Assembly (NCBI RefSeq): GCF_017894385.1
Contig: NZ_CP059560.1
Span: forward strand, 372,001 to 436,000
From: Aromatoleum petrolei
Lineage (GTDB): Bacteria > Pseudomonadota > Gammaproteobacteria > Burkholderiales > Rhodocyclaceae
Direction: 5' to 3'
DNA length: 64,000 nt
How positions within the stretch are numbered: the first letter of the stretch is position 1; each line of letters starts with the position of its first letter. This document shows positions 23,942 to 61,281 of this stretch, in pieces. Under the pieces are notes generated by a model. It searched no databases and was not told the DNA's origin. It saw nothing but the letters and a program-made list of their open reading frames with translations. Both the position numbers and the translations under genes were made by a program.

Positions 23942-26392
23942 TTATCGCGTTGCCAGGCCGAGCACCGGCATCGCCCCCACACGCTGCACGCCTTTCGGGC
24001 TCCTGAGCAGGAAGTGCGACAGGGCCGGGATCAGGATCAGCGCCCCGACCATGTTCCACACGAACATGAAGGTCAGCAGGATCCCCATGTCGGCCTGGAA
24101 CTTGATCGGCGACCAGATCCACGTCACCACCCCCGCCGCGAGCGTCACCCCCACCAGCGCGACCACCTTGCCGGTGAATTGAATCGAGCGCCGATAGGCG
24201 TCCGCGAGCGAGGCCCCTGCGCGCTGCTGCGCGAGCTGAATGGAGAGCAGATACAGCGCGTAATCGACGCCGATCCCCACCCCCAGCGCGATCACCGGCA
24301 AGGTGCCGACCTTCACGCCGATCCCCAGCACCACCATCAGCGCCTCGCACAGGATGGACGTCACCACCAGCGGCACCACCGCCACCACCACCGCGCGCCA
24401 GTTGCGGAAGGTGATGAAGCACAGCACGATCACCGCCCCATACACGTAGAAGAGCATCGTGCGGTTGGCTTCCTTCACCACGATGTTGGTCGCCGCCTCG
24501 ATGCCGGCGCTGCCCGCCGCGAGCAGGAACGCTCGCTCGGGCGTGCTGTGCGCCTCGGCGAAGCCCGCCGCCGCCGCCACCACGCGGTCGAGCGTCTCGG
24601 CGCGGTGGTCGGTGAGGTAGGCGATCACCGGCATCACCGAGCAGTCGTTGTTGAAGAGATCGGGGTTATTCACCGAGGCCTGCTGCGCGCCGTAGTTGAG
24701 CACGTCCTGGTTGCGCGCGAGCGTCACCCACTTGGGGTTGCCCTCGTAGGAGCCGGCGGTGATCTGGCGCACCGCGTCACCGAGGAAGACGGTCGTCTGC
24801 ACGCCGGGCACCTGCTGCAGGGTCCACGCGAGGCGGTCGGCCTCGATGAGCGTGTCGTACTTGAGGCAGCCTTCGGCCGCGGTCTTCACGATCACCGCGA
24901 ACTGGTCACTGGAGAGCGAGTAGTTGGCGGTGATGAAGGCGTTGTCGCGGTTGTAGCGCGAGTCGGCGCGAAGCTCGGGCGCGCCCGGTTCGAGGTCGCC
25001 GATCTTGAGCTGCAGGCTGACGACGAAGCCCGCCACGGTGAGCACGACCGACACCGCGATCGCGCCGATCGCCCAGCGCCGCTCGGTGAAGCGTTCGAGC
25101 CAGGCCCACAGTCCGGTGCTCGCGCTCGATTCGGCCTTGAGGCTGCGTTGGGCAGCGGTAGCACTGACGCCGGTATAGGACAGCAGCACCGGCAGCAGGA
25201 TCAGGTTGGTGAAGATGAGCACTGCCACGCCGATGCTCGCCGAGAGCGCGAGCGACTGGATCACCGGGATGTCGATCACCATCAGCACGGCGAAGCCCAC
25301 GGCGTCCGCGACCAGCGCCGTCATGCCGGCGAGGAAGAGACGACGGAAGGTGAAGCGCGCCGCGATCAGGCGGTGCGTGCCGCGGGCGATGTCCTGCACG
25401 ATGCCGTTCATCTTCTGCGCGCCGTGCGACACCCCGATGGCAAAGATCAGGAAGGGCACGAGGATCGAGAACGGATCGAGTGCGAAGCCGAGGCCGGCAA
25501 TCAGCCCCAACTGCCACACCACCGCCACCACCGAGCAGGCCACCACCAGCGCGGTGCTGCGGGCGCAGCGCGTATAGGCGAAGATCACGATGATGGCGAT
25601 CAGCGCGGCGATCGCGAAGTAGGTCATCACCTGGCTCACGCCGTCGATGAGATCGCCCACGAGCTTGGCGAAGCCGATGATGTGGATGTTGACCGCGGGT
25701 ATGGCCTGTCCGCCGCCCTGCTCGAACTTCGTACGGATGTTGTCCTCGAGGGTCGCGGACAGCGCGCGGTAGTCGATCGGCGCACCGGTGGCCGGATCCT
25801 TGTCGAGCAGCGGCACGAAGATCATGCTGGACTTGAAGTCGTTGCCGACGAAGCGTCCGACGATGCCCGCGCGCGCGATGTTGAGCTTCAGGGCTTCGGT
25901 GGCCTTCGGCGAGCCGTCGTAGGCGTCGGGCATCACCGGGCCGCCCTGGAAGCCTTCCTCGGTCACTTCGGTCCAGCGCACCGAAGGCGTCCATAGCGAC
26001 TTCACCCACGCGCGGTCCACCCCGGGGGTGAGGATCAGCTCATCGTTGATCTTCTTCAGCGTGTCCTGGTAGGCCGGGTCGAAGATGTCGCCTTCGCGGC
26101 TGGCCACCACCACGCGCAGCACGTTGCCCAGGCCACGCAGTTCATTGCGGTTGTCCAGGTAGTTCTGGATGTAGGGTTGGCTTTGCGGCAGCATGCTTTC
26201 GAAACTGGCGTTCAGATGCAGTTTCGTCGCGGCCACCAGCGCCAGCGCCACGGTGACGAACGCACACAGCACCATCACCGCGAGGCGGTGGTTGAAGATC
26301 ATGCGTTCGAGGGCATTGCCCGAGTTGCGATCGAACTCGGCAAGGGAGCGCACCACCGGAGCCCGGTCGTGCGAGTCGTGTGCGACGGCCAT
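23942..26392 (-). CDS. RND/MMPL-type inner-membrane transporter (module A)
   Basis: 816 residues with the hydrophobic pattern of the RND superfamily: helix 1 at about 37-57, a large periplasmic loop, helices 2-6, a second loop and helices 7-12. GVSHGAQKMNGIVQD and ALGVGIGVDYALYLLSIQLA are the conserved helix-4 and helix-10 regions seen in MMPL/HpnN-like lipid transporters. It is not of the drug-efflux tripartite length (~1040 residues), and no membrane-fusion protein gene is nearby. It follows the YCF48-like gene by 15 bases. Lipids, steroids or other hydrophobic molecules are the usual cargo of this class. Cargo here is unknown. Confidence 0.9.
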   Translation of the reverse strand: MAVAHDSHDRAPVVRSLAEFDRNSGNALERMIFNHRLAVMVLCAFVTVALALVAATKLHLNASFESMLPQSQPYIQNYLDNRNELRGLGNVLRVVVASREGDIFDPAYQDTLKKINDELILTPGVDRAWVKSLWTPSVRWTEVTEEGFQGGPVMPDAYDGSPKATEALKLNIARAGIVGRFVGNDFKSSMIFVPLLDKDPATGAPIDYRALSATLEDNIRTKFEQGGGQAIPAVNIHIIGFAKLVGDLIDGVSQVMTYFAIAALIAIIVIFAYTRCARSTALVVACSVVAVVWQLGLIAGLGFALDPFSILVPFLIFAIGVSHGAQKMNGIVQDIARGTHRLIAARFTFRRLFLAGMTALVADAVGFAVLMVIDIPVIQSLALSASIGVAVLIFTNLILLPVLLSYTGVSATAAQRSLKAESSASTGLWAWLERFTERRWAIGAIAVSVVLTVAGFVVSLQLKIGDLEPGAPELRADSRYNRDNAFITANYSLSSDQFAVIVKTAAEGCLKYDTLIEADRLAWTLQQVPGVQTTVFLGDAVRQITAGSYEGNPKWVTLARNQDVLNYGAQQASVNNPDLFNNDCSVMPVIAYLTDHRAETLDRVVAAAAGFAEAHSTPERAFLLAAGSAGIEAATNIVVKEANRTMLFYVYGAVIVLCFITFRNWRAVVVAVVPLVVTSILCEALMVVLGIGVKVGTLPVIALGVGIGVDYALYLLSIQLAQQRAGASLADAYRRSIQFTGKVVALVGVTLAAGVVTWIWSPIKFQADMGILLTFMFVWNMVGALILIPALSHFLLRSPKGVQRVGAMPVLGLATR

Positions 26393-26407
26393 CGCGTCGG
26401 TCTCCTG

Positions 26408-27454
26408 TTAGCGAAGGGGCTGGACGCGCACGCCGCGGGCACCCGCGACGACCACCGCATCCGTGCCGAGGGCGTGCACCGCCGAAGCCGGCGTGGCGCG
26501 CTCGAGCTTCACGGGCGAGAAACGCTCGCCGCCATCCTGGCTCACGAGGATGCGCCCGGCCTGGCTGGCGAGCAGCACGCCGCCCTCGCCCAGCGCGGCG
26601 CCGGCCGTGAGCCCCTCCTGCACCCCGGTCTCCACTTTGTGCCAGGTGGCGCCGCGGTCGGTGCTGCGGTACGCGTTGCCGCGCAGGCCGAAGACGATGA
26701 CGGCGCTGTTCGTGCCGGTCACGCCGAAGTAGCTGCCCGGGTACGGGGTGGCGACGCGCGTAAAGCGTCCGGCCGCCGCGTCGAGGCGCAGCACGAGGCC
26801 CTGTTCGCCCACGACATACACGTCGCCGGCGGCGCCGCGGATGCCGTAGAGGTGCAGCGCCTGCGGGTTGTCGGTGCGGTCGAGCCACGGCGTCCAGCGC
26901 TTGCCACCGTCGGTGGTGCGCAGGATCAGGTTGAAGGCGCCCACGACGAAGCCGTTGCGCTCATCGCTGAACCACACGTCGAGGAAGGGGTTCTCCGCGC
27001 CCTGCGCGGCGAAGCGCTCGGCCTCGACGATCCACGCCGCCTCGCCCTTGGCCTTGTAGTGCGCGAGCATCACTTCGCCCAGCGCCCGGCCGTCAAGCTG
27101 CTTGGTCCAGCTCGCACCGGCATCGCTCGTCGCGAGCACCACGCCGTCGTGGCCCACCGCCCAGCCCTGCTGCGGCGTCGGGAAGCTCACCGCGACGAGG
27201 TCCGAGCTCACCGGCACTTTCGCCTGGCGCCAGCTCCGGCCCTGGTCGTCGGAGTACACGACGTGGCCGCGCTGGCCCACGCCGACCACCCGCGACCCCG
27301 CCTGCGCAAGGCCGTTGATCAGGCCCTTCGTCGCCAGCTCGCTCGCCATCGCCGGCACGTCGAGCACGTCCTGGAAGCCCGCGGCGGCGGGGGCCGCGGC
27401 CGGCATCAGCAGCGCGAGCGCGAGCGCTGCGCCACCGAATCGATGCACATTCAT
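26408..27454 (-). CDS. YCF48-like beta-propeller periplasmic protein (module A)
   Basis: 348 residues from ATG 27454 (GAGGAAAG upstream), starting with a signal peptide of about 25 residues. Repeated blades are visible: WRQAKVPVSSDLVAVSFPTP, GWAVGHDGVVLATSDAGASW, NGFVVGAFNLILRTTDGGKRW, AVIVFGLRGNAYRSTDRGATW. This is the BNR/YCF48 type otherwise known from photosystem II assembly factors (HCF136). In non-photosynthetic bacteria it recurs with RND and DUF1329 genes, where its role is undefined. A scaffold between the RND periplasmic loops and the DUF1329/DUF1302 parts is a reasonable inference. Confidence 0.87.
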   Translation of the reverse strand: MNVHRFGGAALALALLMPAAAPAAAGFQDVLDVPAMASELATKGLINGLAQAGSRVVGVGQRGHVVYSDDQGRSWRQAKVPVSSDLVAVSFPTPQQGWAVGHDGVVLATSDAGASWTKQLDGRALGEVMLAHYKAKGEAAWIVEAERFAAQGAENPFLDVWFSDERNGFVVGAFNLILRTTDGGKRWTPWLDRTDNPQALHLYGIRGAAGDVYVVGEQGLVLRLDAAAGRFTRVATPYPGSYFGVTGTNSAVIVFGLRGNAYRSTDRGATWHKVETGVQEGLTAGAALGEGGVLLASQAGRILVSQDGGERFSPVKLERATPASAVHALGTDAVVVAGARGVRVQPLR

Positions 27455-27535
27455 GGTCTCTTTCCTCGGTCGGGGGCGGAAGCGAGGCACGGCCTGCGCC
27501 GCACCCCGCTCCCGGGGACGAGATTTATTATGGTT

Positions 27536-28885
27536 TTAGCGGATGCCCGAGCCGGCGAGCGAGTCGGGTGACCAGTCGCGGTCGGTGAGCGGCTTGGTCT
27601 GGCGCATGCCGCCGGTCTCGGCGGCGAAGCCGGTCAGCGAGTAGATGCCCGCCACGAGGTCGTAGTGGCCGAACATGTCGGTGTAGGGCGCGGGCAGGTC
27701 GTAGCTCGGGGCCATGTAGGCGAAGCCCGCGCGGTAGAGCTGGCCACGGGCGTCGTACTGGTCGGAGGCGAGCGCCGCCCACGAGTCCTCGTCGAGGTAG
27801 AAGGTGCGCTTGCTATACACGTGGCGCTTGCCTTCGCGCAGCGTCGCTTCCACCACCCACACGCGGTGCAGCTCCCAGCGCACGAGATCCGGGTTGAGGT
27901 GGTTGGGTTTGAGCAGATCGTCCTGCTTCGCCTGGTACACCGCGGTGTAGGCGTTGTACGGCACGATCATCTCCTTCTTGCCCACGAGCTTGAAGTCGAA
28001 GCGGTCCATCGAGCCGATGAAGATGAAGATGTCGTCGAAGGTGTTGCCGCCGGCCGTGCCCGGGTTGGGGGTGTCGTGCGAGAGGTCCGGGGCGACTTTT
28101 ACGCGCCGCTGACCCGGCAGGTAGGTCCACGCACGCCGGTCCTTGGTGCCGATGTCGAGCGGATCGACGATCAGGAGCGCCTCGCCCGCGCGCCGCGCGG
28201 GGCCCGTGTAGGTGTTCTTGATGCGCCAGTAGGTCTCGGCCGAGCTCTTCGACGCATCCCAGAACGGGTACTCCTGCACGTTCACGCCTTCGGTGGCGAG
28301 CGTGGTGCGCCCGGCCGCATCGACGTTGAGGTTGCGGTACTTCACCTCGTAGGCCTGGCCGTTGTAGCGCACGAGGTGGTTCCACATCGCTTCATAACCC
28401 GTCTTGGGGATCGGGAAGGGGAAGCCGGCGTGCGCGCCTTCGATCGAGCGCCCGTCGTTGTTGGTCTTGGCCTGCGTGGCCGTCTTGAGCGTGTTGTCGG
28501 CGACGAACTTGGGGAAGGCGACGCTGCGGTGCGTCGGATAGACGTCGACGCGGAAGCTGGGGTACTTCTGCAGCAGCGCCTTGGTGCCTTCGGTGAGCTT
28601 GTCGGCGTGCTGCGCCAGGTTCTTGGCGTCGATCACGAGGCGCGGCTTCTCGTTGGCGAAGGGGTTGGGGCGGATGCCGTCGCCCGCCTTGAAGCCCGCC
28701 GGGGCCGTGGTGAGCCCGCCGGTGTACTCGGGGATGGTGCCGTCCTTGTTGCCGGCCTTCTCGGCGCCGACCGCGGTGAGCGTGGTGCCGAGCTTCTTCG
28801 CCTCTTCGGGCGTGATCGCGGCCACCGCCGCGCCGCTCAGGGCCAGCGCGAGTGCGGCCGACAGCAGGGTTTGCGTGAGTCTCAT
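27536..28885 (-). CDS. DUF1329 (LolA-like) periplasmic protein (module A)
   Basis: 449 residues from ATG 28885, which has GAGGAGGAGG upstream; longer frames are shadows of DUF1302. A signal peptide ends near AVAA (residue 23). The DUF1329 pattern is clear: VDVYPTHRSVAFPKFVADNT, AWTYLPGQRRVKVAPDLSHD, MDRFDFKLVGKKEMIVPYNA and YLDEDSWAALASDQYD. The family falls in the LolA-like superfamily of hydrophobic-cargo carriers, so it may ferry a lipophilic compound across the periplasm. It sits between DUF1302 (14 bases) and the YCF48-like gene (81 bases). It is paralogous to 59905-61281. Confidence 0.9.
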   Translation of the reverse strand: MRLTQTLLSAALALALSGAAVAAITPEEAKKLGTTLTAVGAEKAGNKDGTIPEYTGGLTTAPAGFKAGDGIRPNPFANEKPRLVIDAKNLAQHADKLTEGTKALLQKYPSFRVDVYPTHRSVAFPKFVADNTLKTATQAKTNNDGRSIEGAHAGFPFPIPKTGYEAMWNHLVRYNGQAYEVKYRNLNVDAAGRTTLATEGVNVQEYPFWDASKSSAETYWRIKNTYTGPARRAGEALLIVDPLDIGTKDRRAWTYLPGQRRVKVAPDLSHDTPNPGTAGGNTFDDIFIFIGSMDRFDFKLVGKKEMIVPYNAYTAVYQAKQDDLLKPNHLNPDLVRWELHRVWVVEATLREGKRHVYSKRTFYLDEDSWAALASDQYDARGQLYRAGFAYMAPSYDLPAPYTDMFGHYDLVAGIYSLTGFAAETGGMRQTKPLTDRDWSPDSLAGSGIR

Positions 28886-28899
28886 GGGGGTCCTCCTCC

Positions 28900-30582
28900 T
28901 CAGAAGGTCGTCTTCAGTGTCAGGCTCACGAAGCCGCGGTCCTGCAGCAGCGTGGTGAAGCCGTTTTGTGTGGTGAGCGCGGTGCCGTTGTCGCGGTACT
29001 TGCCGAAGTAGTCGATGTACTTGAGATCGATGCGGTACTTCTGGAACACGTCCGCCGAGAGCCCGACGCTGTAGTTGCCGTTGCCTTCGTTGCCGCCGAA
29101 CACCGTCGGGGCGTTGCCCGAGAGGCCCACCGACACCGCCAGCGGCGCCGACAGATCCACCCCGGGCAGCACCTGGTACCAGGTCGGGGTGAAGGCGAGC
29201 GCGAGGCCGAAGAAGTCCTTGGTCGTGCAGCCGTCCCACTTGTCGCGGCCGGCACAGGGGGCGAAGCCGGTGGCGTAGAAGAGGCGTTCGCCGCTACGCA
29301 CCTTGTCCCATTTGGCCCAGGTGAGCTCGGCCGCCCAGCTCGCGGCATCGAACGCCGGGGTCTCGGAGACGAGCCCCAGCACGTTCACGAGCCCGTGGAA
29401 GGTGTCGCCACGCGGGCCGCTGGTGTCGCCCCGATCGGGTAGCCCCGTGGTCGAGATGCCCAGCACCTGCGAGTTGAGCGGGGTGTTGCGGCGGTAGGAG
29501 AGTTCGGCGCCGACGCTCACGCCGCCGATGTTCTTGGCCAGGCTCACGCCGAAGAGGTCGATGTCGTCGGCGTAGATGAGGTTGTAGCGGGAGACGCCCG
29601 GGCCGACCCGCGTGAGGAAGGTCTGCGGCAGCTTGTCGGCGTAGCGGCGGTAGTAGAAGCCGAGCGTGCCGTCGAGCGCTTCGGGCGACCAGCGCAGCGA
29701 CACGCCGTATTCGCCGGACTGCCTGGGCTCGACCGGCTTGCCGTTGGCGGCGAAGCCCAGCCCGCGGCTGATGAACTGGCGGTCGGGGCCGTTGAAGGCG
29801 AAGTCGACCGGGCCGAGGTAGGTGCCCCCTTCGGGGTAGCGGTAGGCTTCCCATTCCATGAAGTACTGCGCCGACACCGACAGCGTGTCGGTGAGCTGGG
29901 CCTGGCCCGAGAGCTGGTTGAGCGGGCGGAAGAGTTCCTTCGCTTCGGCGCCGGGGGTCGCGAAACCCTTCTGCAGGTCGAGCGGCATCTGCGCGTAGGA
30001 GACGCTGTGCAGCGCGCCGCCGAGGAACAGCGATTCACCCCAGAACACCGTGTGACGGCCCGCCTTCAGGCGCACCGGCACGCTCGCGGCGTCGAAGTTG
30101 GCGAACACGAAGGCGTCGAGCAGCTCGCCCGAGGGGCCGGCGTAGTAGCGCTTGGTGTAGCGGCTGTACTCATGGTCCCGGTAGCTCGGAATGGCCGCGA
30201 ACGGGGCGTTCGGGTTCGATTCGCTCTTGTCGCCGTAGGCCGCGTCGACCCACGCCGCGCCGCTCACGCGAAAGCCGGTCTTGCCCTGGTACACCACGTC
30301 GAGCTCGGACAAGAGGTCGAGGCGGTTGGCCACCAGATCGCCCCGGTCGAAGCTGTACGTACCCTCGTCGGTGAGCGCCGAGTTGGCAAACTTGCTGTTG
30401 CGCGACTCCACCCGCGAGGCGATGTTGTAGCGCACGGTGTTGTCCCAACGAACCTGCAGGTCCGCGTTCCCCGTGTCAAGCTCGAACGCCTGTGCGGTGC
30501 CGCTCAGGGCCAGCGTCGCTGCGGCGACGGCCAGCGCCATCTTCCTGCGCGCCGGAGCCGAACCTTGTCTCCTCATATTCAT
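28900..30582 (-). CDS. DUF1302 outer-membrane beta-barrel protein (module A)
   Basis: 560 residues from ATG 30582 (GAGGGGC upstream). A signal peptide ends at TAQA (about residue 32). The mature part begins FELDTGNADLQVRWDNTVRY, the DUF1302 start, then alternating beta strands rich in aromatic residues (GVSLRWSPEALDGTLGFYYR). It ends in Phe (VSLTLKTTF), the usual outer-membrane assembly signal. The predicted role is an outer-membrane channel for hydrophobic or aromatic compounds. First gene of module A, about 206 bases downstream of the acyl-CoA ligase in the same direction. Confidence 0.9.
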   Translation of the reverse strand: MNMRRQGSAPARRKMALAVAAATLALSGTAQAFELDTGNADLQVRWDNTVRYNIASRVESRNSKFANSALTDEGTYSFDRGDLVANRLDLLSELDVVYQGKTGFRVSGAAWVDAAYGDKSESNPNAPFAAIPSYRDHEYSRYTKRYYAGPSGELLDAFVFANFDAASVPVRLKAGRHTVFWGESLFLGGALHSVSYAQMPLDLQKGFATPGAEAKELFRPLNQLSGQAQLTDTLSVSAQYFMEWEAYRYPEGGTYLGPVDFAFNGPDRQFISRGLGFAANGKPVEPRQSGEYGVSLRWSPEALDGTLGFYYRRYADKLPQTFLTRVGPGVSRYNLIYADDIDLFGVSLAKNIGGVSVGAELSYRRNTPLNSQVLGISTTGLPDRGDTSGPRGDTFHGLVNVLGLVSETPAFDAASWAAELTWAKWDKVRSGERLFYATGFAPCAGRDKWDGCTTKDFFGLALAFTPTWYQVLPGVDLSAPLAVSVGLSGNAPTVFGGNEGNGNYSVGLSADVFQKYRIDLKYIDYFGKYRDNGTALTTQNGFTTLLQDRGFVSLTLKTTF

Positions 30583-30676
30583 CGTCTGCTGCCCCTCTTT
30601 TATCGTTGGCTTGAGCTGCTTCTCTGTCCGGTCACTGTATTCCGGATGATGTTCATTGTGCGCACCGGGGAGCCTA

Positions 30677-30788: not shown

Positions 30789-32435
30789 TCAGGCAGTCCG
30801 CTCGCGCAGAACCTTCTTGTTGATCTTGCCGACGCTGGTCTTCGGAATTTCCGCGACGAATACGATGCGTTCGGCATCCGGCACCGCGTACTTGCTGATG
30901 CGATTCGACTCCACGAGCCCCAGCAGATGGAGGCGGATCGCCTCCACATCGACGGTCACCCCGGGCTTGCACACCACGTAGGCCATCGGGCGCTCACCCC
31001 ATTTCTCGTCGCGCACGCCCACCACAGCCGACTCCTGGACGCCCGGCACCTCGCCGATCAACCCCTCGACCTCGATCGACGACACCCACTCGCCGCCGGT
31101 CTTGATCACATCCTTGATGCGATCGACGATCTGCACGAAGCCGTCCGGCCGCACCACCGCAACGTCCTGCGTGTGCAGGTAGCCCCCCGCCCACAGCTCC
31201 TCGGACGCCTCCGGTTTCTTGAAATAGCCCTGCGTCAGGAAGGGCGCGCGCAGCACGATCTCGCCCTGCGTCTTGCCGTCGCGCGGCACGTCGTTCATGT
31301 CGGCATCGACCACGCGGAAGTCCACCAGCGGCACAGGCCGACCCGTCAGGCAGCGCAGATGCACCTCCTCGCCCAGATCCGCCGTTACGTCGTCAGCCGA
31401 CAGCTGAGCGAGCGCCACCACCGGCCCCGTCTCCGACATCCCGTAGCCCGCGAACACATCGATGCCCCGCTCCACTGCCGCGCGGCACAGCACCGGCGAC
31501 AGCGCCGAACCGCCGATGATGATCTTCCAGCCGGAAAGATCCTGATCCGCCCCGGACGGCGCCTGCAGCAGCATCTGCAGGATCGTCGGCACGCAATGAG
31601 AGAAGGTCACCCTCTCCTCGCGCTGTAGCTTCAACAGCAGGTCCGGCACGTAGCGCCCCGGCAGCACCGTCCGCAGGCCCAGCAGCATCGCGATGTAGGG
31701 CACGCCCCACGCCAGCACGTGGAACATCGGCGTGATCGGCATGTACACGTCATCGCGATGCAGCCGCTGCCCCTCTGGCTGCGAAGTCAGGCTCAGGGCC
31801 GTGCCCAGCGTGTGCATCACGATCTGGCGGTGGCTGTAGCACACCCCCTTGGGGTCGCCCGTCGTGCCGGTCGTGTAGAAAGTCGCCGCCTTCGTGTTCT
31901 CGTCGAAATCGCGGAATTCGAAATCCGCCGACGCCGCCTCCACCAGCGCCTCGTACTCACCCGCAAAGGAGAGCGACGTCGCCGGCACCGCCTGCCCGTC
32001 GGCCATCACCACGATCTGCCGCACGTTCTTCAATTCGGGCTTCAGCTGCTCGAGCAGCGGCACGAAGTCCGCATGCACCAGCACCACCTCCGCCTCGGAA
32101 TCGTTGAGCGTGTAGGCGATCTGCTGCGGCGACAGGCGCACGTTCACGGTGAACATCGTCGCGCCCATCATCGGGATGCCGAAGTAGCTCTCCAGATAGC
32201 GATGGCTGTCCCAATCCATCACCGCCACCGTCGTGCCGTGGCGCACACCCAGCGCCGTCAGCGCCGACGCGAGCTTGCCGACGCGCGCGCGGAAATCGCG
32301 AAAGGTGTAGCGCATCTCCCCGCGATAGGTGATCTCCTGGTCGCCATGCAGGTTGACCGAATTGAGCAGCAGCTGCTTCACCAGCAGCGGGTAGGTATAG
32401 GCCGAAGGCGTGGCGACGATCGTATTGTCCGGCAT
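30789..32435 (-). CDS. Acyl-CoA ligase (AMP-binding, medium/long-chain type)
   Basis: 548 residues from ATG 32435, chosen because ACGGAGAC lies just upstream; an ATG 15 bases earlier has no site. The AMP-binding motif YTTGTTGDPKGVCYSHRQ, the A5 motif GYGMSETGPV and the C-terminal KTGGEWVSSIEVEGLI and PKTSVGKINKKVLRE are all intact. The enzyme activates a carboxylic acid to its CoA thioester at the cost of ATP to AMP. It precedes module A on the same strand, which suggests that compounds brought in by the module are CoA-activated. The SnoaL-like gene is divergent. Confidence 0.92.
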   Translation of the reverse strand: MPDNTIVATPSAYTYPLLVKQLLLNSVNLHGDQEITYRGEMRYTFRDFRARVGKLASALTALGVRHGTTVAVMDWDSHRYLESYFGIPMMGATMFTVNVRLSPQQIAYTLNDSEAEVVLVHADFVPLLEQLKPELKNVRQIVVMADGQAVPATSLSFAGEYEALVEAASADFEFRDFDENTKAATFYTTGTTGDPKGVCYSHRQIVMHTLGTALSLTSQPEGQRLHRDDVYMPITPMFHVLAWGVPYIAMLLGLRTVLPGRYVPDLLLKLQREERVTFSHCVPTILQMLLQAPSGADQDLSGWKIIIGGSALSPVLCRAAVERGIDVFAGYGMSETGPVVALAQLSADDVTADLGEEVHLRCLTGRPVPLVDFRVVDADMNDVPRDGKTQGEIVLRAPFLTQGYFKKPEASEELWAGGYLHTQDVAVVRPDGFVQIVDRIKDVIKTGGEWVSSIEVEGLIGEVPGVQESAVVGVRDEKWGERPMAYVVCKPGVTVDVEAIRLHLLGLVESNRISKYAVPDAERIVFVAEIPKTSVGKINKKVLRERTA

Positions 32436-32450
32436 GGTTGTCTCCGTCAT

Positions 32451-52253: not shown

Positions 52254-52262
52254 CGCCTTCTC

Positions 52263-52553
52263 CTACAGTTCCCGTGCCAACTTCAAGGCGGTCTTGATGT
52301 CCTTGGCTTGGGTGGTCTTGTCGCCGCCCGCCAGCAGGATCACCACTTCCATGCCGCGCTGGGTGAAATACACGCGGTAGCCCGGCCCATAATGGATCCG
52401 CATCTCTGAAACCCCCTCTCCCACCGATTCACAGTCGCCGAAGTCGCCCAACTCTGCCCGGCCGATCCGCATCTTGATGCGGGCCGCTGCCTGCGGGTCC
52501 CGGAGACAGGCAAACCAAGCGTCGAAGAACTCGGTGGTAAGAGTGGTCTTCAT
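52263..52553 (-). CDS. RelE/HigB-type toxin
   Basis: 96 residues from ATG 52553; a longer frame adds twelve unlikely residues. FFDAWFACLRDPQAAARIKM, EMRIHYGPGYRVYFTQRG and VVILLAGGDKTTQAKDI match the addiction module killer protein group of the RelE/ParE superfamily. Members cleave ribosome-bound mRNA or act on gyrase. The conserved core (RIHYGPGYRVYF ... LLAGGDK) is intact. It is paired with the HigA-type gene. Confidence 0.9.
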   Translation of the reverse strand: MKTTLTTEFFDAWFACLRDPQAAARIKMRIGRAELGDFGDCESVGEGVSEMRIHYGPGYRVYFTQRGMEVVILLAGGDKTTQAKDIKTALKLAREL

Positions 52554-53047
52554 GCGACGGATTGTATCTTTTGGGATACGTGTGAGCAACGACCCCGGAC
52601 TGCTGCCTCGGCACCCGTCGTCAGGGATACGGCGGCGAAGGCGTCGCGCACTTCAACACCCTGCCGCTATTACAGCTACGGTTGCGGTCGAATGGCCGAA
52701 ATCAGACAGCCCTCTTCCGCGCCGTTGAGGGGGACGTGCTTGAAAATAGGCGTATCACAGCGATTGCCTTTCCCACGGAATACATTGCGCATGATGCTCT
52801 GATCCCAGGCGATTTACGCCTAACCGCTATATGGTCGTACCGCAGACCGTCGATGCGGTAGGAGCCTGTGGTCTTGGCCCTTCCGCGAACGACTCGGCAC
52901 TTGTGCAAGAACCAGTTTCCTTACGAAACGGAGTCGGGGAAAAAACGCGCCCCGCTAAGGAGGCGCGAAGGGATGCTCCTCGACGGTGACGGAGACGTTG
53001 CGACTCGCCGTCGCTTAACGGCAGCATCCGTGGGACGATTCCGAGCC
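52554..53047. other. Gene-poor region, about 490 bases
   Basis: A plus-strand frame without a start, ending at TAG 52859-52861, has protein-like text (VAHFNTLPLLQLRLRSNGRN, ALFRAVEGDVLENRRITAIA) and may be a gene remnant. I cannot assign it. The right-hand end holds no terminator I can support for the ALDH gene that stops at 53048. Confidence 0.4.
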
Positions 53048-54472
53048 TCAGGCTTTCATGATCTTCAGCGTCTGGATCGAGGTGTATTCCTCCAGGCCGT
53101 AACGACCGAACTCGACGCCCAGCCCCGACTGCTTCACGCCGCCGAAAGGTGCGTCGGGCTGAACCGCGCCGTGTTCGTTGATCCACGCCGTGCCGCACTC
53201 CAGTTGCAGCGCGAGCTCGGCGGCTTTCTTGCGGTCGTTCGACCACACCGAGCCACCGAGGCCGTTTTCGTTGTCATTGGCGCGGGTCAGCACCGCATCG
53301 ACGTCCGAGTAGCGGATCACCGGCAGCACCGGCCCGAACTGCTCTTCATCGACGACGCGCATGCCGTCCTTCGCATCGGCGATCACCGTCGGCTCGTAGA
53401 AATAGCCCTTCCCGGGTCGCGCCTTGCCGCCCGACAGGATCCGCGCACCGTTCGCGCGTGCGTCCTCGACCAATTCGTGCACGAAGTCGAGCTGGGCCTT
53501 GTTCTGCACCGGGCCGAGCTGCGTGCCTTCGACCAGACCGTCGCCGACGACCGTATCGCGTGCAAGACGCGCGAGCTCCTCGACGACTTCGTCGTAGATG
53601 GAGTCATGCACGTACAGGCGCTTGAGGCAGGCGCAGGTCTGACCGTTATTGTGGAAACCGACGCCGAAGAGCTTGGGCGCAACCGCCTTCGGATCGACAT
53701 CGGGCAGCACGATTCCCGCGTCGTTGCCACCGAGCTCCAGCGTGAGCCGCTTCAGGTTGCCCGCGGCGTTCTGCATGATGGTCTTGCCGGTCGGCGTGGA
53801 GCCGGTGAACACGATCTTGTTGATGTCGGGATGCTTGGCGATCGCCGAGCCGACCCCGCTCTCGCCGGTGACGATATTGAGCACGCCCGGCGGCAGGATA
53901 CGGTTGGCGAGCTCGGCGAAGCGCAGCGTGGCAGTGGGTGTCAGGCCAGACGGTTTCATGACGACCGTGTTGCCCGCGCGCAGCGCCGGGATCACGTGCC
54001 AGATGGCGATCATCAGCGGCCAGTTCCACGGGGTGATCGACGCGACCACGCCCAGCGGCTTGCGATGGACTTCGATACGGGCGATGTCATCGTCCTGGAT
54101 CACTTCGACCGGCAGATCCAGATCAGCGGTGACGTGCGTCCAGGCGATGGAACCCCCGACCTCCATGCCCGCGCCCACGCCGTTCAGGCCCCCGAGCGGC
54201 TTGCCACTCTCCTTGGTGACCAACTCCATCAGGGTTGGCATGTCCTCCTCGATCGCAGCGCCCAAGGCATGCAGCAAGTCCTTGCGACGCGCGTCCGGCG
54301 TGCGGCTCCAGTCATGAAACGCGGCACGTGCGGCTGCGACCGCCTGGTCCACGTGCCCGGCATTTCCGGCCTGCACGCACGCGAAGGCCTCGCCGGTCGC
54401 CGGATTGATGACGTCGAACGCGCTGTCGGCCTTCACGGGCTGGCCGTTGATGATCATGTCGAAAACTTGCAT
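53048..54472 (-). CDS. Aldehyde dehydrogenase (last gene of the amine/module B operon)
   Basis: 474 residues from ATG 54472 (AGAGGAGA upstream). Catalytic Cys280 (NNGQTCACLKR), Glu246 (LTLELGGNDAG) and SITPWNWPL are intact. A double Cys (CAC) follows the nucleophile. The sequence is distant from the ALDH at 48265-49770. It lies 133 bases after the YCF48-like gene on the same strand. It would oxidise to the acid an aldehyde such as that formed by the amine oxidase of the same operon. It has no signal peptide, so that aldehyde would have to reach the cytoplasm. Confidence 0.92.
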   Translation of the reverse strand: MQVFDMIINGQPVKADSAFDVINPATGEAFACVQAGNAGHVDQAVAAARAAFHDWSRTPDARRKDLLHALGAAIEEDMPTLMELVTKESGKPLGGLNGVGAGMEVGGSIAWTHVTADLDLPVEVIQDDDIARIEVHRKPLGVVASITPWNWPLMIAIWHVIPALRAGNTVVMKPSGLTPTATLRFAELANRILPPGVLNIVTGESGVGSAIAKHPDINKIVFTGSTPTGKTIMQNAAGNLKRLTLELGGNDAGIVLPDVDPKAVAPKLFGVGFHNNGQTCACLKRLYVHDSIYDEVVEELARLARDTVVGDGLVEGTQLGPVQNKAQLDFVHELVEDARANGARILSGGKARPGKGYFYEPTVIADAKDGMRVVDEEQFGPVLPVIRYSDVDAVLTRANDNENGLGGSVWSNDRKKAAELALQLECGTAWINEHGAVQPDAPFGGVKQSGLGVEFGRYGLEEYTSIQTLKIMKA

Positions 54473-54605
54473 CGGATCTCCTCTTGTCCATAGGTAAGTG
54501 TCACAACGCCGCCATATGGGCATGACGTGTGACGCTGAAAGTGCAGGCTGATCGGGCGAACCGCTGCCCCGTTAGCCGAATTCGGCAGAGCGAATTCCCC
54601 CGCGC

Positions 54606-55583: not shown

Positions 55584-55596
55584 TGCATGTCTCCGC

Positions 55597-57993
55597 TCAG
55601 TGCGCCAGGATGCCCGGCGCGCGCACGGCGCTCCGCCGCGGGAAGAGCCGTTCGAGCCAGACGGCCAGCGCGGGCAGCGCGGTCATCGCCATCACCATGT
55701 TGATCATGAACATGAAGGCCAGCAGCTTGCCCATGTCGGCCTGGAACTTGAGTTCCGAGAACATCCAGGTCGCTACGCCGACCGCCAGCGTGATCGCGGT
55801 GAAGATGGTCGCGGTGCCGACTTCGAGGATCGCGTGTTCCAGCGCCTTGACGATGTGCTGGCCGTTGGCGAGGTGCAACTGCAGGCGGTTGTAGATGTAG
55901 AAGGCGTAATCCACGCCTATCCCCACCGCCAGCACCATCACCGGGAGCGTCGCCACCGTTAGCCCGATCTCCAGCTCCTTCATGAACCAGTAGCCGATGA
56001 AGGTGCCGACCGTGAGCGGCAGGCAGCACGCGATCACGGCACGGAAATCCCGATACACGAGGGCGACGAGGATCACAATCGCCGCATAGACGTAGAGCAT
56101 CATCGGGAGTTCCGACTTGTGCACCTCCTCGTTCACCGCCGCCTGCACGCCGGCGTTGCCCGACGCGAGCCGGATACCGATCCCGTCTTCCCGGTCACGT
56201 TCGCGGAAGGTTTTCACTTCCCGGATCACGCGATCGATCGTCGTGGCCTTGTGGTCGGTCAGGAACAGATGGACTGCCGTCATGCTGCAATCCTTGTTCA
56301 TGAAGCCGCGCACGCGGCCGATCTCAGTCGCGAGGGAGGCGTAGTTGCCGGCATCGATCGGCACCACCGACATCTTCGGATTGCCCTCGTTGTAGCCCTC
56401 GTTGTAGGTGCGCAGCTGCCCAGAGAAGGACAGCGCGGACAGCACTCCCGGCACATACTGCATCGCGGCGACGAAGCGATCCTGGTAGAGGCCGACCTTC
56501 ACGTTCTCGCACGACTCCGGCGGCGCCTCGAAGATCACGGTGAGCCAGTCGAGGCCCGTGTCGTAGCTGCCGGAAATCGCCACCGCGTCGCGATTGAAGC
56601 GCGCCTCGGGCCGCAGCTCCGGGGCTCCGGGTTGCACGGTGCCGACGACCCGGTCGCTGCTCTGCCATACCGCCGTGACGAAGACGGCCGCCGTGACGGC
56701 GATGACGATCGCGGCGTTGCGCGGCTCGGCGACGCGCGCGAGCGTCCGCAGCCAGGTCGCGCGCCGCTCGCGCTTGAGCATCGCGCGGTCGGCGTAGTCC
56801 TTCGTGAAATGGCACAGCGACGCGGCCAGCGGCAGCATCACGAGGTTGGTGACGATCTTGTAGCCGACCCCCAGAGATGCGGTGATCGCCAGCTCGCGCA
56901 CCATCGGAATGGGGATCAGGACCAGGGTCACGAAGGACACGAAGGCGGTCACGAGGGCGAGCGTGCCGGGGATCAGCAGCCCGGTGAAGCTCGCGCGCGC
57001 AGCCTCGTCGGTGCTGCGGCCGTGGGAGAGTTCGCGCACGATGAAGTTGATCTGCTGCACGCCGTGCGAAACGCCGATCGCGAACACCAGGAAAGGCACC
57101 AGCACGGCGAGCGGATCGAGTCCGTAGCCGAGCAGCTTCAAGGTGCCGAACTGCCATACCAGCGAGGTGAGCGAGCACACGATGGGCAGCAGCGTGAAGC
57201 GCACGGACTGGCAATACCAGTACACTGCAAGCGCCGTCAGCAGCAGCGCGATAGCGCAGAACTCGAGCACCGCCGATGCTCCGTCGGCGATGTCGCCGAT
57301 CTGCTTGGCAAAGCCGATGATCTGGATCTCGAACTCGCCGTCCTCGAACTTGCTGCGCAGCTGCTCTTCGAGGATGCGGTTGTACGCGACGTAGTCGACG
57401 CGATTGCCGTCGCGGTCGTGCTCCAGCAGCTCGGCGACGATCATCGCGCTAGTCTGGTCGCGGGCCACCAGTGTCCCGACGAAGCCGCCCTGGCTCGCCG
57501 CGCGCTGGATCGCCGCGAGGACGTCGGGCGTCAGATCCTTCGGCATGATCGTGCCCGCGATCAGCGGATCGGCGCGAAAGCCTTCCTCGGTGATCTCGTT
57601 GACGAAGGAGTTCGGCGTCCACAGGGACTGCACACCCAGCCGGTCGATATTCGGCAGGAAGCTCACCGCCTGCGTCACTTCATAAAGACGCGTGAGCGCG
57701 TCCTGCGTCCAGATCGTGCCCTTGCGCGCCTTGACGACGATGTTCAGCCGGTTCGCGCCGAGCACGTCGTCGCGGTACTGGTTGAAGGTCTGGATGTATT
57801 CGTGACCGACCGGCATCTGCTTCTCGAAGCCGGCGTCCATGCGCAGCTGCAGCGCGAACCACCCCATGAGCCCGGTAAATAGCGCGAGCAGGATCAGGAC
57901 GGTGCGCCGCTGGCCGAAGCAGAATGCCTCCAGCCGTCGCAGGCTGCGGGTGAGAAAGCTGTCGACCTCGTCGACGCTGAGTGGATTCAGCAT
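55597..57993 (-). CDS. RND/MMPL-type inner-membrane transporter (module B)
   Basis: 798 residues, twelve membrane helices in two halves with large periplasmic loops. GVSHGVQQINFIVRELS and LAVGIGVDYAFYIYNRLQLH are the conserved helix-4 and helix-10 regions, almost the same as in module A. The N-terminus is extended by a soluble segment (LNPLSVDEVDSFLTRSLRRL). No membrane fusion protein or TolC-like gene is nearby. It follows DUF1302 by 72 bases. Substrate unknown; hydrophobic cargo is expected for this class. Confidence 0.9.
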   Translation of the reverse strand: MLNPLSVDEVDSFLTRSLRRLEAFCFGQRRTVLILLALFTGLMGWFALQLRMDAGFEKQMPVGHEYIQTFNQYRDDVLGANRLNIVVKARKGTIWTQDALTRLYEVTQAVSFLPNIDRLGVQSLWTPNSFVNEITEEGFRADPLIAGTIMPKDLTPDVLAAIQRAASQGGFVGTLVARDQTSAMIVAELLEHDRDGNRVDYVAYNRILEEQLRSKFEDGEFEIQIIGFAKQIGDIADGASAVLEFCAIALLLTALAVYWYCQSVRFTLLPIVCSLTSLVWQFGTLKLLGYGLDPLAVLVPFLVFAIGVSHGVQQINFIVRELSHGRSTDEAARASFTGLLIPGTLALVTAFVSFVTLVLIPIPMVRELAITASLGVGYKIVTNLVMLPLAASLCHFTKDYADRAMLKRERRATWLRTLARVAEPRNAAIVIAVTAAVFVTAVWQSSDRVVGTVQPGAPELRPEARFNRDAVAISGSYDTGLDWLTVIFEAPPESCENVKVGLYQDRFVAAMQYVPGVLSALSFSGQLRTYNEGYNEGNPKMSVVPIDAGNYASLATEIGRVRGFMNKDCSMTAVHLFLTDHKATTIDRVIREVKTFRERDREDGIGIRLASGNAGVQAAVNEEVHKSELPMMLYVYAAIVILVALVYRDFRAVIACCLPLTVGTFIGYWFMKELEIGLTVATLPVMVLAVGIGVDYAFYIYNRLQLHLANGQHIVKALEHAILEVGTATIFTAITLAVGVATWMFSELKFQADMGKLLAFMFMINMVMAMTALPALAVWLERLFPRRSAVRAPGILAH

Positions 57994-58065: not shown

Positions 58066-59817
58066 TCAGAAGTTGCGCGAAACGAATCCGCCGATGAAGT
58101 CGCGGTCGCGGAACGGAGCGCTGACGGGCATGTCGCCGCCCCAGAACTTCGTGTAGTTGATGCCCGCCTGCCACGTGGCCGGATTGCGGTTGAAGAGCAC
58201 GTAGAAGTTGGCCGACTTCGCGCCCTCCATCCAGTTCGCCATGAAGTTCGGCGTGTTGCCCTGGACCGCGTGCGACAGGAACACGCCCGGGATCACCTGC
58301 CAGCCGGGAATCAGCGTGCTGTCGTAGGTCAGGCTGAAATCGAACATGTAGCCCCAGGACAGCTCGTCGCCCACCCCCTTGAAGGCGCCGTTGGCGTCGA
58401 GATAGGTCCACGCGCCCGCCGCGGGAAGCTGCTGGTAGCTCACGCCGTTGCGAGTGCGCGTGAACACCTTGTTCGAGCTCACGCCCGGGTAGGCGATCGC
58501 GACGGCCTCGCCGAGGAAGGTACCGGTCTGCGCGCCTACGAGGTCGAGGAACCAGCCGTGGTCGCTGGGCGTCAGGCTGAGGATGCCGGTGAGGTGGAGC
58601 TGGTAGCGCTCCCTGTCGATCGAGCCGTTGCACTCGTCGACGCCCGCGAGTCCGCCTGTCGCCGGATCGAGGCACACGCTCGTGGCGACCGCATCCTTGG
58701 GCCGGTAGGAGAGTTCCGCGCCGACCGCCCAGTTGCCGATCGACGTGTTCGCGCTGATGCCGTACAGCTCGCGGTCTTCCAGAAAATACACCTTCGTGTT
58801 GTTCTGCGCGTTCCAGTACTGGAAGTTCGGCGTCTTGTCGTGGAAGCGCTGATAGTAGAAGCCCAGGTCCACGTCCCAGCCTGCGGGGCGGACCTTCAGC
58901 GAGACGCCGTACTGCCCGCTGTCGCGCGGATCGTCGTCGCGGCCGACCGGAAAGGCTTCGCCTGCCGCCAGCATCGAGGCCTTCGCGCTCGACAGCGACT
59001 GCCCGAACAGCGGATCGCCCGGCGTGCGGATACGGCTCGCCGCGTCGGGCGTGAAATACAGCAGCTTATCGCGCCCTTTGTCGAAGGTGTCGCCCATCGA
59101 GAAGTAGGTTCCCGCAGGCGGAAACTCGTACTGCTTCCACTGAAATTGGTAGTAGGCCTCGAGGTTCACGCCGCGGCCGAGCCCTGTCGCCACGCTCAGC
59201 ATCGGCGACGGCAGGAAGGCCTCCTTCAGCTGCACGCCGGGCGACGACAGGCGCTGCAGGTCCATCGCGACGTTGGAATTGATGCCGCCGACCATGAACA
59301 AGCTCTCGCCCCAGCTCACAACCTGGTTGCCGAGCCGCACGCGGGCGCGCTGGCCGCCGAAATCGAGCTCCTTGCTCACCCACAGGTCGTAGAGCCGCGC
59401 ATAGCGGCCGACGGCGCGCTTCGCCTCGCCGTCGAGCGAGGTGCGCGCGGTCTCATCCGCGACGAAGTCGTACAGCCAGCCGACGCGGCCCATGAACTTC
59501 CATTCGTCGGGGAAGCTCAGCAGCAGTTCATGCGAGCCCTTCAGGTGCGTCGTGAAGAGATCGCCCTTGTCGTAGTTGAGATTGCCGTCGTCGGCGTTCC
59601 CCCATTGCACGGTGTTCGCACCGGCGCCGCAGCTTGTGGATTGATCGCCGTGATGATCGCAACGCTGGCCTTCGACACGCTGGCCGAAGCCGAGCGTGAG
59701 GGTGGTGTCGAACGAACCGGTGATCGAACCCGCCTCGAACTGGAACGCTTGCGCCGCGGGGGCGAAAATGCCCGCGAAAGCGAGACACAGCACCGTCCGT
59801 TTCAGATGGATGCTCAT
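58066..59817 (-). CDS. DUF1302 outer-membrane beta-barrel protein (module B)
   Basis: 583 residues; GAGGTAAG before ATG 59817. A signal peptide ends AAQA (about 23), then FQFEAGSITGSFDTTLTLGF, the DUF1302 opening. Aromatic-rich alternating strands continue (VDLGFYYQRFHDKTPNFQYW) to the end IGGFVSRNF with terminal Phe. Two cysteine pairs occur (Cys in GQRCDHH and TSCGAG near residue 55), absent from the module A copy, so an extracellular or periplasmic disulfide is possible. Predicted outer-membrane channel. Confidence 0.9.
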   Translation of the reverse strand: MSIHLKRTVLCLAFAGIFAPAAQAFQFEAGSITGSFDTTLTLGFGQRVEGQRCDHHGDQSTSCGAGANTVQWGNADDGNLNYDKGDLFTTHLKGSHELLLSFPDEWKFMGRVGWLYDFVADETARTSLDGEAKRAVGRYARLYDLWVSKELDFGGQRARVRLGNQVVSWGESLFMVGGINSNVAMDLQRLSSPGVQLKEAFLPSPMLSVATGLGRGVNLEAYYQFQWKQYEFPPAGTYFSMGDTFDKGRDKLLYFTPDAASRIRTPGDPLFGQSLSSAKASMLAAGEAFPVGRDDDPRDSGQYGVSLKVRPAGWDVDLGFYYQRFHDKTPNFQYWNAQNNTKVYFLEDRELYGISANTSIGNWAVGAELSYRPKDAVATSVCLDPATGGLAGVDECNGSIDRERYQLHLTGILSLTPSDHGWFLDLVGAQTGTFLGEAVAIAYPGVSSNKVFTRTRNGVSYQQLPAAGAWTYLDANGAFKGVGDELSWGYMFDFSLTYDSTLIPGWQVIPGVFLSHAVQGNTPNFMANWMEGAKSANFYVLFNRNPATWQAGINYTKFWGGDMPVSAPFRDRDFIGGFVSRNF

Positions 59818-59904
59818 CGTTTCTTACCTCGAAAGGGTCTCCGGCGGCCGGGGACAGCCCCGGTCGCGGCGAAGAGAGATCGGATTTCGGGAGAGGCTGG
59901 AGGA

Positions 59905-61281
59905 TCAGCGGTCGCTGATCGCCCGCAGGTTGTCGGGCGTGTAGAAATCGTCCCGGTACTTGGGATCGTTCGGCTCGGTCGCCCACGCCATGTCCTGCCC
60001 GGCGCCCAGCGAACCCTGGTCGTACAGCACTCGGCCGGACGCGAGGTCGTACTGCACGAAGGCCGGGTTGTCGCAGGTGCCGGTCTCGGCGACGGGGATC
60101 AGGAAGCTTTCGCGCACCTTCCAGAGCTTGCCCTGCGCGTCGTAATCCTCGGCTCCCATCAGCGCCCACGAATCCTCGTCGAAGTAGAACCGGCGCTTCG
60201 GCGCCACGTGGCGCACGCCGCTTTTTGCCGTCGCCTCGACGACCCACACGCGATGCAGCTCGTAGCGCGCCGCCTTCGCATCGACGCCCTCCGGGGTCAC
60301 GACCTTGTGGCGGTCAGCCGCCGGGTCGTACATGCCGAACGCGTTGTACGCGACATACATCTCCTTCTTCCCGATCAGCTTCCAGTCGAACCGGTCGGCC
60401 GGACCGTTGAACACGCGCGGCTCGTCCATCGTGTATTGATTCTCGAAGCCGATCTGCGGTGCGTCGTACGAATAACTCGGCATGCGGCGCACACGGCGCT
60501 GGCCTGGAAAGTAGTAGAAGGTGTCACCCGTCTTGTCGGTGTAGGAGGTGACGAGCAGCGCCTGACCGGCGAGCGCGGTGGGCGACGCGTAGGCGAAATA
60601 GGTGTTGTACTCGACTGGAGGCAGTTCGCTGAGCTTCTTGGCGCCCTTGCGTCCCCACGGGTAGTAGTAGGTCTGCGTCGACTTCGCCTCGATCCAGTCG
60701 CCGCCGCTCGCCCGCGGCGAGAGCATCGTCCACTGCGCGGGCAAGGTGATGCCGACGCCCGCGTATTTCATCTTGGCGTTCCACAGCACCTCGATTCCGC
60801 TCGTCGGCACCGGGAACGGGACGCCAGGCACGACCGCTTCGGCGAGGCTCCAGCCATCGCTTCCCAGCTTGGCTGCGGTGATGTTCTTCCGGGTGCTGTC
60901 CTGCACGAAGTCCGGCGCCGAGCAGTGGCGATGCGTCGGGTACACGTCCATGCGGTAGTTCTTCAGCGTCTTGAGCAGGGCACGCTGGCCTTCACCCAGC
61001 TTGTCCGCGTACTTGTCGGCATTCGAGCCATCGATCGTGTAGAGCGGCTTGTCATCCTTGTACTTGAAGAAGTTGCCGCGCGGCTTTCCATAGGCCCACC
61101 CGGGGCTGAGCGCGCCTCCGTCCTGCCATCCAGGAATCGAGTTGTCCTTGTTGGCGGCCTTCTCGCCACCCAGCGGGGTGAGATCCTTACCGAGCCTGTC
61201 GGCGTCCTGAGGCGCGGCCGCCAATGCGGCGCCGGCGGCCAGGGCCAGCGTCAGCAGGCCCGTTGTGCGTAATGCTTTCAT
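59905..61281 (-). CDS. DUF1329 (LolA-like) periplasmic protein (module B)
   Basis: 458 residues from ATG 61281 with GAGGAGAC upstream. A signal peptide ends ALAA. The DUF1329 landmarks are VYPTHRHCSAPDFVQDSTRK, YYFPGQRRVRRMPSYSYDAP, DRFDWKLIGKKEMYVAYNAF and YFDEDSWALMGAEDYD, matching those of module A. Family fold: LolA-like half-barrel for hydrophobic ligands. First gene of module B. It lies 72 bases after the SnoaL-like gene. Confidence 0.9.
   Translation of the reverse strand: MKALRTTGLLTLALAAGAALAAAPQDADRLGKDLTPLGGEKAANKDNSIPGWQDGGALSPGWAYGKPRGNFFKYKDDKPLYTIDGSNADKYADKLGEGQRALLKTLKNYRMDVYPTHRHCSAPDFVQDSTRKNITAAKLGSDGWSLAEAVVPGVPFPVPTSGIEVLWNAKMKYAGVGITLPAQWTMLSPRASGGDWIEAKSTQTYYYPWGRKGAKKLSELPPVEYNTYFAYASPTALAGQALLVTSYTDKTGDTFYYFPGQRRVRRMPSYSYDAPQIGFENQYTMDEPRVFNGPADRFDWKLIGKKEMYVAYNAFGMYDPAADRHKVVTPEGVDAKAARYELHRVWVVEATAKSGVRHVAPKRRFYFDEDSWALMGAEDYDAQGKLWKVRESFLIPVAETGTCDNPAFVQYDLASGRVLYDQGSLGAGQDMAWATEPNDPKYRDDFYTPDNLRAISDR

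Follow-up and report, generated by a model that had tools for sequence, protein, structure and literature searches.

Four-part DUF1302-DUF1329-YCF48-RND modules of Aromatoleum petrolei: probable AmeABCD-type transport systems beside catabolic genes and a lineage that adjoins amine dehydrogenases

A four-part system of DUF1302, DUF1329, YCF48-type and RND proteins is already in print, as AmeABCD of Castellaniella defragrans and as the Tween 20 genes of Pseudomonas putida. AmeA is a DUF1302 protein, AmeB a DUF1329 protein, AmeC is of the COG4447/YCF48 type and AmeD is an RND permease of the HAE3 family; a deletion mutant of ameABCD grew poorly on apolar monoterpenes (limonene) as sole substrate, while acetate, perillyl alcohol and a mixture of acetate with 3 mM limonene supported normal growth (PMC6394551). 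In P. putida, PP_0765 (DUF1302), PP_0766 (DUF1329), PP_2018 and PP_2019 are required for Tween 20 and were modelled as a transport system, AlphaFold contacts being described as strong between PP_2018 and PP_2019 and as weak where PP_0766 meets PP_2019 or PP_0765 (PMC10866462). Furthermore, the benzene-degrading Desulfobacterota strain ORM2a expresses a 'Nanopod' cluster with DUF1329, YCF48-related and MMPL genes during benzene degradation, and a DUF1329 gene of Delftia is cited in the same paper as needed for good growth on phenanthrene (PMC13101534); in Delftia, a DUF1302 protein was found in the outer membrane (PMC3110197). Here we analysed two modules, A and B, that encode the same four families in a window of 64,000 bases of Aromatoleum petrolei (bases 372001-436000 of the single 5,407,396-base contig). 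The initial annotation of this window had put forward a machine whose mechanism is not described, a novelty that the deletion phenotype of AmeABCD (PMC6394551) and the transport model of P. putida (PMC10866462) take away. What is added here is a three-part core, a probable role of YCF48 as an accessory of the RND permease, a His/Asp pair in the permease and an amine link of the lineage to which module B belongs.

All eight genes of modules A and B lie on the minus strand and score above the curated Pfam cut-offs of their families (Table 1; the start codon of the module A DUF1302 gene is an ATG chosen by our script), and the transcription orders, DUF1302-DUF1329-YCF48-RND in A and DUF1329-DUF1302-RND-YCF48 in B, are those first annotated. 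Module A is a plain member of the AmeABCD type, sharing with the C. defragrans cassette the gene order (matched also by five other modules of this genome), the link to hydrocarbon catabolism and the lack of a separate membrane-fusion protein or TolC (PMC6394551). Module B is a variant of this type in order, clade and neighbours, and is called so because its order departs from that of AmeABCD. The likeness was drawn by family and order; in contrast to the published case, no monoterpene genes were recognised in the window and 11 modules occur in one genome. A classical tripartite pump of the HAE1 family would be expected to include a membrane-fusion protein and a TolC-type channel, whereas neither family was found among the 49 open reading frames of the window scanned against Pfam, as the initial annotation had also read it, and HAE1-type NCBIfam models matched the module B permease weakly (25-42 bits). 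The P. putida system resembles the modules in that a multidrug-efflux-type transporter and a periplasmic protein share one phenotype with DUF1302 and DUF1329 proteins, a likeness taken from the described families; its genes sit in two places, whereas A and B keep all four together, and its substrate is Tween 20 (PMC10866462). The available text on the ORM2a cluster, unlike the case in A and B, does not name DUF1302 and has a porin-like hypothetical protein in that place (PMC13101534).

To see how regularly the families occur together, the co-occurrence check suggested with the initial annotation was run on 398 genomes of the phylum, the own genome included and counts uncorrected for kinship. 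With thresholds for strong matches that were set after viewing the tables (DUF1329 E<=1e-50; RND, profile A1, E<=1e-100; DUF1302 E<=1e-24), DUF1329 was found in 53 genomes, RND in 53, DUF1302 in 56 and all three in 52; strong DUF1329 and RND matches coincided in 53/53 genomes, DUF1302 stood alone in four and was missing beside the other two in one. Looser limits, at which the searches scored about 4 (DUF1329), 2 (RND) and 3 (DUF1302) candidates per genome, gave 127, 89 and 104 of the 398 genomes, respectively. YCF48 was scored at 65 strong RND places outside the own genome (L101-L165), and it adjoined the RND gene at 64 of them, the exception being L149; a few of the 65 were without one recognised partner. 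Own, named and sample loci together comprised 124 complete modules, among which the B lineage is over-represented because the named loci were picked by similarity to an RND profile headed by module B. Their gene orders (B, DUF1302 barrel; C, DUF1329 carrier; Y, YCF48; R, RND) were BCYR in 77, CBRY in 37 and YRBC in 5, with four modules having their halves on opposite strands and one BYRC. Barrel and carrier genes were adjacent in 123/124 modules and so were propeller and RND genes, the exception being L107, where one of two carrier genes separates barrel from propeller and the script picked the other. These counts reject chance or paralogue noise, and the four families are supported as one co-inherited system.

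The own contig carries 13 DUF1329, 13 DUF1302 and 12 RND genes (E<=1e-70) and 12 YCF48 places, plus four weaker RND matches (E 1e-7 to 1e-4). Grouped by position, these form 11 complete modules, A and B included, and three half-modules, namely two lone DUF1302-DUF1329 pairs (491-494 kb and 715-718 kb) and one lone YCF48-RND pair (595-599 kb), split on the same line as the two adjacent pairs of the complete modules. One complete module (L018) was recognised as such by the family searches of the contig, its carrier having fallen below the threshold of the locus script. The first 0.79 Mb of the 5.41 Mb (G000:C1:40-786 kb) hold 8 of the 11 complete modules and all three half-modules. Thus the two modules of the initial annotation are real, though they are two of many and not each other's closest paralogues: the permeases of A and B are 38% identical, the nearest relative of the B permease in the genome is a 56% identical copy at 4.097 Mb and the twin of A lies elsewhere, so that A and B as simple duplicates of one another were rejected. 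A stretch of 7.7 kb comprising the Cons_hypoth698 gene and all of module A (window 22910-30614) recurs with 96.9% nucleotide identity at G000:C1:340283-347980. The copy sits about 55 kb off (L011 5283-12980), and the universal-stress-protein genes near the two copies are just 73% alike. Among the best 120 matches listed, the A permease shared 96% identity, over 93% of the query, with a partial protein of Aromatoleum toluclasticum and 88% with one of Azoarcus sp. KH32C, and the B permease 94% with a KH32C protein. We also scanned 40 proteins flanking the other modules and half-modules of the genome; the flanks differed between modules and were mostly catabolic, with Rieske oxygenases (L019), molybdopterin enzymes (L009), hydantoinase A/B-type genes (L018), PPDK-type genes (L016), an acyl-CoA dehydrogenase (L017) and thiolases (L010, L014), besides regulators and unassigned proteins. 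Such different and largely catabolic flanks read as one module per catabolic set.

Each module is thus probably a transport system of the AmeABCD type dedicated to the hydrophobic substrate of the adjoining catabolic genes. The DUF1302 protein would be a barrel in the outer membrane, the DUF1329 protein a LolA-like soluble carrier in the periplasm and the HAE3-like permease a proton-driven engine in the inner membrane, on which the YCF48 propeller would dock as an accessory. The carrier may hand small hydrophobic molecules singly between barrel and permease, and a carrier shuttling one by one would require no continuous tunnel of membrane-fusion protein and TolC; as far as the sequences go, they argue for such a putative shuttle rather than for a sealed tunnel. 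The path from barrel to carrier, propeller and pump in the initial annotation is retained in so far as the barrel, carrier and propeller proteins of both modules have signal-like N-termini (judged by eye), both carriers give LolA_like sub-matches and the permeases are HAE3-like, while the propeller as a link of the chain is weakened. C-terminal Phe is frequent in outer-membrane barrels, and 81 of 125 DUF1302 frames end in it. We infer the direction from the catabolic neighbours and from the poor growth of mutants on limonene and Tween 20 and, as cited in PMC13101534, on phenanthrene, which favour a net inward or assimilatory flux of growth substrates over export for tolerance, with about even confidence that the flux is inward; a literature search on uptake by HAE3 permeases found nothing. 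Several points weigh against this picture. Single-sequence searches gave no PDB relatives of the DUF1302 and DUF1329 proteins, 33 of the 125 DUF1302 frames end in Ile instead of Phe, and the best NCBIfam model for both permeases, HAE3 TIGR00921, was matched with 122.8 (A) and 149.9 bits (B), below its cut-off of 351.9. Above 5 mM limonene the ameABCD mutant was impaired even with acetate, its authors propose export, Nile Red was slightly higher in CCCP (carbonyl cyanide m-chlorophenylhydrazone)-treated mutants, and HpnN, the HAE3 precedent summarised in the same paper, works outward on lipid (PMC6394551).

The limonene, Nile Red and HpnN points belong to the published reading of AmeABCD, which would make the modules efflux systems: the permease would extract toxic hydrophobes from the inner membrane and pass them by way of the carrier to the barrel for release, giving tolerance. 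We regard this as somewhat doubtful yet a serious competitor, for which the tolerance data, the Nile Red results and the HAE3 precedent speak. The deletion reduces both growth on apolar monoterpenes and tolerance above 5 mM limonene, and PAbN (phenylalanine-arginine β-naphthylamide) raises Nile Red accumulation in the wild type; however, the mutant grew like the wild type on 3 mM limonene plus acetate and normally on perillyl alcohol, and real-time efflux of Nile Red was nearly identical in the two strains (PMC6394551). Moreover, the Tween 20 dependence of P. putida concerns growth on a mild substrate (PMC10866462), and catabolic neighbours that differ from module to module agree better with substrate handling than with general tolerance.

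Alternatively, the modules might consist of an outer machine (DUF1302-DUF1329) and an inner one (YCF48-RND) that are separable and mix and match, the operon being a convenience and not the sign of one complex. The two outer and one inner half-modules of the genome are in line with this, as are the 8 of 65 sample loci with YCF48-RND and no other pair in the fetched stretch, the 2 more with the pair several kb off, and the two places of the P. putida parts, split as the half-modules are (PMC10866462). The reading is nevertheless unlikely in view of the genome-level co-occurrence and of the co-variation across the inner-outer line: partial correlations of pairwise evolutionary distance over the 124 modules were 0.53 for RND-DUF1302 and 0.36 for RND-DUF1329, besides 0.47 for RND-YCF48 and 0.41 for DUF1302-DUF1329, with 0.05 for YCF48-DUF1329 and -0.09 for YCF48-DUF1302, a pattern kept in 300 subsamples of 60% with kinship still included. 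That the proteins serve the formation of outer-membrane vesicles or nanopods, with transport effects secondary, is very improbable: a DUF1302 and a DUF1329 protein do occur in Delftia nanopods (PMC3110197) and the DUF1329-YCF48-MMPL cluster bears the label 'Nanopod' (PMC13101534), but the latter paper itself argues for benzene movement across membranes and the nanopod protein list includes other outer-membrane proteins (PMC3110197).

Returning to the transport system as one unit, YCF48 looks like an accessory of the RND permease and not a bridge between the membranes, because it co-varies with RND alone and is missing from three-part relatives. The bridging propeller was a candidate that these two results weakened. 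The relatives were found among 15 distant loci (L166-L180) chosen from 36 genomes with weaker RND matches: 13 of them have a DUF1329-like gene, an RND gene and a DUF1302-like gene without YCF48, and the other two are cut or incomplete. A YCF48 match was absent from 13 of the 15 genomes, and the matches in the other two fall within long frames on other contigs. Therefore the core is barrel, carrier and RND permease, with YCF48 added in the main branch. Eleven of the 13 three-part loci stem from one family group of small genomes. The longest protein among the best 120 RND matches listed per search has 867 aa, which carries no weight for or against fusions.

By profile, the nearest solved relatives of the permeases are of HpnN and MmpL types (PDB 6wu0, 5khn, MmpL3/4/5; E 2.5e-12 and weaker). 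In the main family (156 permeases, half-modules and a few lone RNDs included), transmembrane helix 4 (TM4) has the motif S-H-x-x-Q, with His in 154/156, one Asn (own L018) and one gap (fragment L063), and TM10 has Asp-Tyr in 156/156. The L018 permease (G000:C1:2049-2051 kb) thus has the sole Asn among the 155 with a letter at the TM4 place. Weak RNDs have Asp there in 14/16 and His in 2/16 (L171, L172); Asp is the usual residue at this place in the permeases of the three-part relatives. The TM4 His as a marker of YCF48 did not prove strict, as L171 and L172 have it in genomes without a YCF48 match, and it occurs in a few lone main-family RNDs as well. The HpnN sequences in PDB differ in that they align with an Asp in the relay helix of the N-terminal half, whereas the C-terminal relay helix has none. 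By general RND knowledge, and by analogy, TM4 His and TM10 Asp would be the residues that carry protons. At L054, L056, L057, L061, L062, L079 and L149 the main-family RND stands without a recognised neighbour from the other three families; L054 and L056 fall directly outside the B lineage, and L061 is a short contig.

The B lineage adjoins three unrelated kinds of amine dehydrogenase. Beside module B, window 62251-63720 encodes a Pnao-like flavoenzyme, putatively of the cytochrome-linked Pnao/NicA2 type, that combines an export signal with an adjacent exported cytochrome c gene (signals judged by eye). Its best PDB sequences are 7u6l (429 bits) and 7e7h (428 bits), and no NCBIfam model matched at E<=1e-20; the cytochrome (61870-62238) had no Pfam match. 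A paper that names the entry 7u6l shows Pnao of P. putida S16 to be a dehydrogenase using the cytochrome CycN, both with predicted export signals; the pair near module B resembles Pnao-CycN in combining a putative flavin amine dehydrogenase that has an export signal with a c-type cytochrome, whereas the available part of that paper mentions no transport module (PMC9396064). The same flavoenzyme and cytochrome genes flank a module in Thauera (L021). On the other side of module B, the aldehyde dehydrogenase (53048-54523) was matched best by aminobutyraldehyde and phenylacetaldehyde dehydrogenase models, both below cut-off, and had no PDB relatives at a very strict limit. The second kind is found at the other own module of B order (L020), which has a quinohemoprotein amine dehydrogenase alpha subunit and its radical-SAM maturase above curated cut-offs; their counterparts in Aromatoleum L060 are 90% and 97% identical. 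The third kind, heavy- and light-chain homologues of tryptophan tryptophylquinone (TTQ) amine dehydrogenase, occurs at ten further loci (nine of B order and one cut, L024); the five proteins tested (both chains of L036 and L049 and the light chain of L023) matched methylamine dehydrogenase models below their cut-offs, in keeping with a related amine dehydrogenase. The periplasm is the site of TTQ and quinohemoprotein amine dehydrogenases.

The TTQ heavy chain was found at 9/42 B-order loci versus 0/104 A- or C-order loci, and aldehyde dehydrogenase at 25/42 versus 6/104. TTQ light chains were present in 16/35 searched genomes of the B lineage versus 0/14 A-order genomes, in 9 of the 16 with a copy in the module locus and in 7 only elsewhere; none was found in the own genome. 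On a quick tree of the permeases (57 rows, three fragments left out, long branches flagged, enzyme labels from BLAST clusters), the amine label changed 8 times; the TTQ label alone changed 9 times versus 9.4 in shuffles and is not clustered. Enzyme types differ among close relatives, as L047 (TTQ) stands beside L020 and L060, and window B and L021 stand among TTQ loci; repeated exchange could explain this, as could loss or links overlooked where contigs end. We tentatively propose, somewhat short of an even chance, that the B lineage is a distinct AmeABCD-type branch serving periplasmic amine oxidation. It would carry a hydrophobic amine in, or take the periplasmic aldehyde derived from it through the inner membrane to the aldehyde dehydrogenase in the cytosol, and would have kept this job while the partner enzyme (TTQ, quinohemoprotein or Tat-exported flavoenzyme) was exchanged; its permease, as in other four-part modules, would work on the TM4-His/TM10-Asp relay, with YCF48 as a regulator bound to it. 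At the other 30/42 B-order loci, none of the three enzymes lies within the stretch analysed. A DAO-type FAD oxidoreductase, left out of the amine counts, is encoded at eight further B loci. In the open-access literature, we found no papers joining DUF1329 or DUF1302 with the names of TTQ or quinohemoprotein amine dehydrogenases.

The remaining features near the modules are given in Table 1, where we take the Cons_hypoth698 protein to be of the YeiH type. In addition, the window contains a probable addiction-module antidote and a Gp49-like gene (51951-52589), likely a toxin-antitoxin pair amid catabolic genes, and a transposase with an integrase core (3654-4810), presumably of the IS3 type, with a small overlapping open reading frame upstream.

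Table 1. Genes of modules A and B and of their surroundings, in window coordinates.
Feature	Position	Strand	Evidence
Module A DUF1302 protein, 558 aa from chosen ATG, predicted outer-membrane barrel	28903..30576	-	PF06980 397 bits; signal-like N-terminus
Module A DUF1329 protein, 449 aa, putative LolA-like periplasmic carrier	27536..28885	-	PF07044 473 bits; LolA_like PF17131 32 bits; signal-like N-terminus
Module A YCF48-type propeller, 360 aa	26408..27490	-	PF14870 (PSII_BNR/YCF48) 88 bits
Module A RND permease, 816 aa; TM4 His323, TM10 Asp710-Tyr711	23942..26392	-	PF03176 (MMPL/RND) 45 bits
Module B DUF1329 protein, 472 aa, putative LolA-like carrier	59905..61323	-	PF07044 418 bits; LolA_like 35 bits
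Module B DUF1302 protein, 583 aa, predicted outer-membrane barrel	58066..59817	-	PF06980 440 bits; signal-like N-terminus
Module B RND permease, 798 aa; TM4 His310, TM10 Asp695-Tyr696	55597..57993	-	PF03176 75 bits
Module B YCF48-type propeller, 325 aa	54606..55583	-	PF14870 95 bits; Ycf48 PDB structures E about 1e-20
Thiolase and two CoA-transferase subunits, downstream of module A	19809..22797	-	PF00108/PF02803, PF01144 twice
Cons_hypoth698 protein, duplicated along with module A	22910..23923	-	PF03601
AMP-binding acyl-CoA ligase, upstream of module A	30789..32450	-	PF00501; NCBIfam PRK06187 632 bits, cut-off 476
LuxR-type regulator with AAA domain, near module A	33381..36086	-	PF00196, PF13401
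Aldehyde dehydrogenase, downstream of module B	53048..54523	-	PF00171 495 bits
SnoaL-like protein between module B and cytochrome	61354..61851	-	PF13474 22.7 bits, cut-off 22
Small c-type cytochrome, one CXXCH, signal-like N-terminus	61870..62238	-	Read directly from the sequence; homologue (64%) at the Thauera module L021
Flavin amine oxidase/dehydrogenase, Pnao-like, twin-arginine-like signal SRRNFLRLAG	62251..63720	-	PF01593; signal by eye

Little is understood of how hydrocarbons, fatty acids and similar hydrophobic food pass the two membranes of bacteria, and our literature searches on the present, widespread system found a single deletion study of a whole module. For the B lineage, amines or their aldehydes are a concrete candidate class of substrates. 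Moreover, with 11 modules beside different catabolic genes in one organism, A. petrolei offers a good setting in which to study the specificity and direction of these systems.

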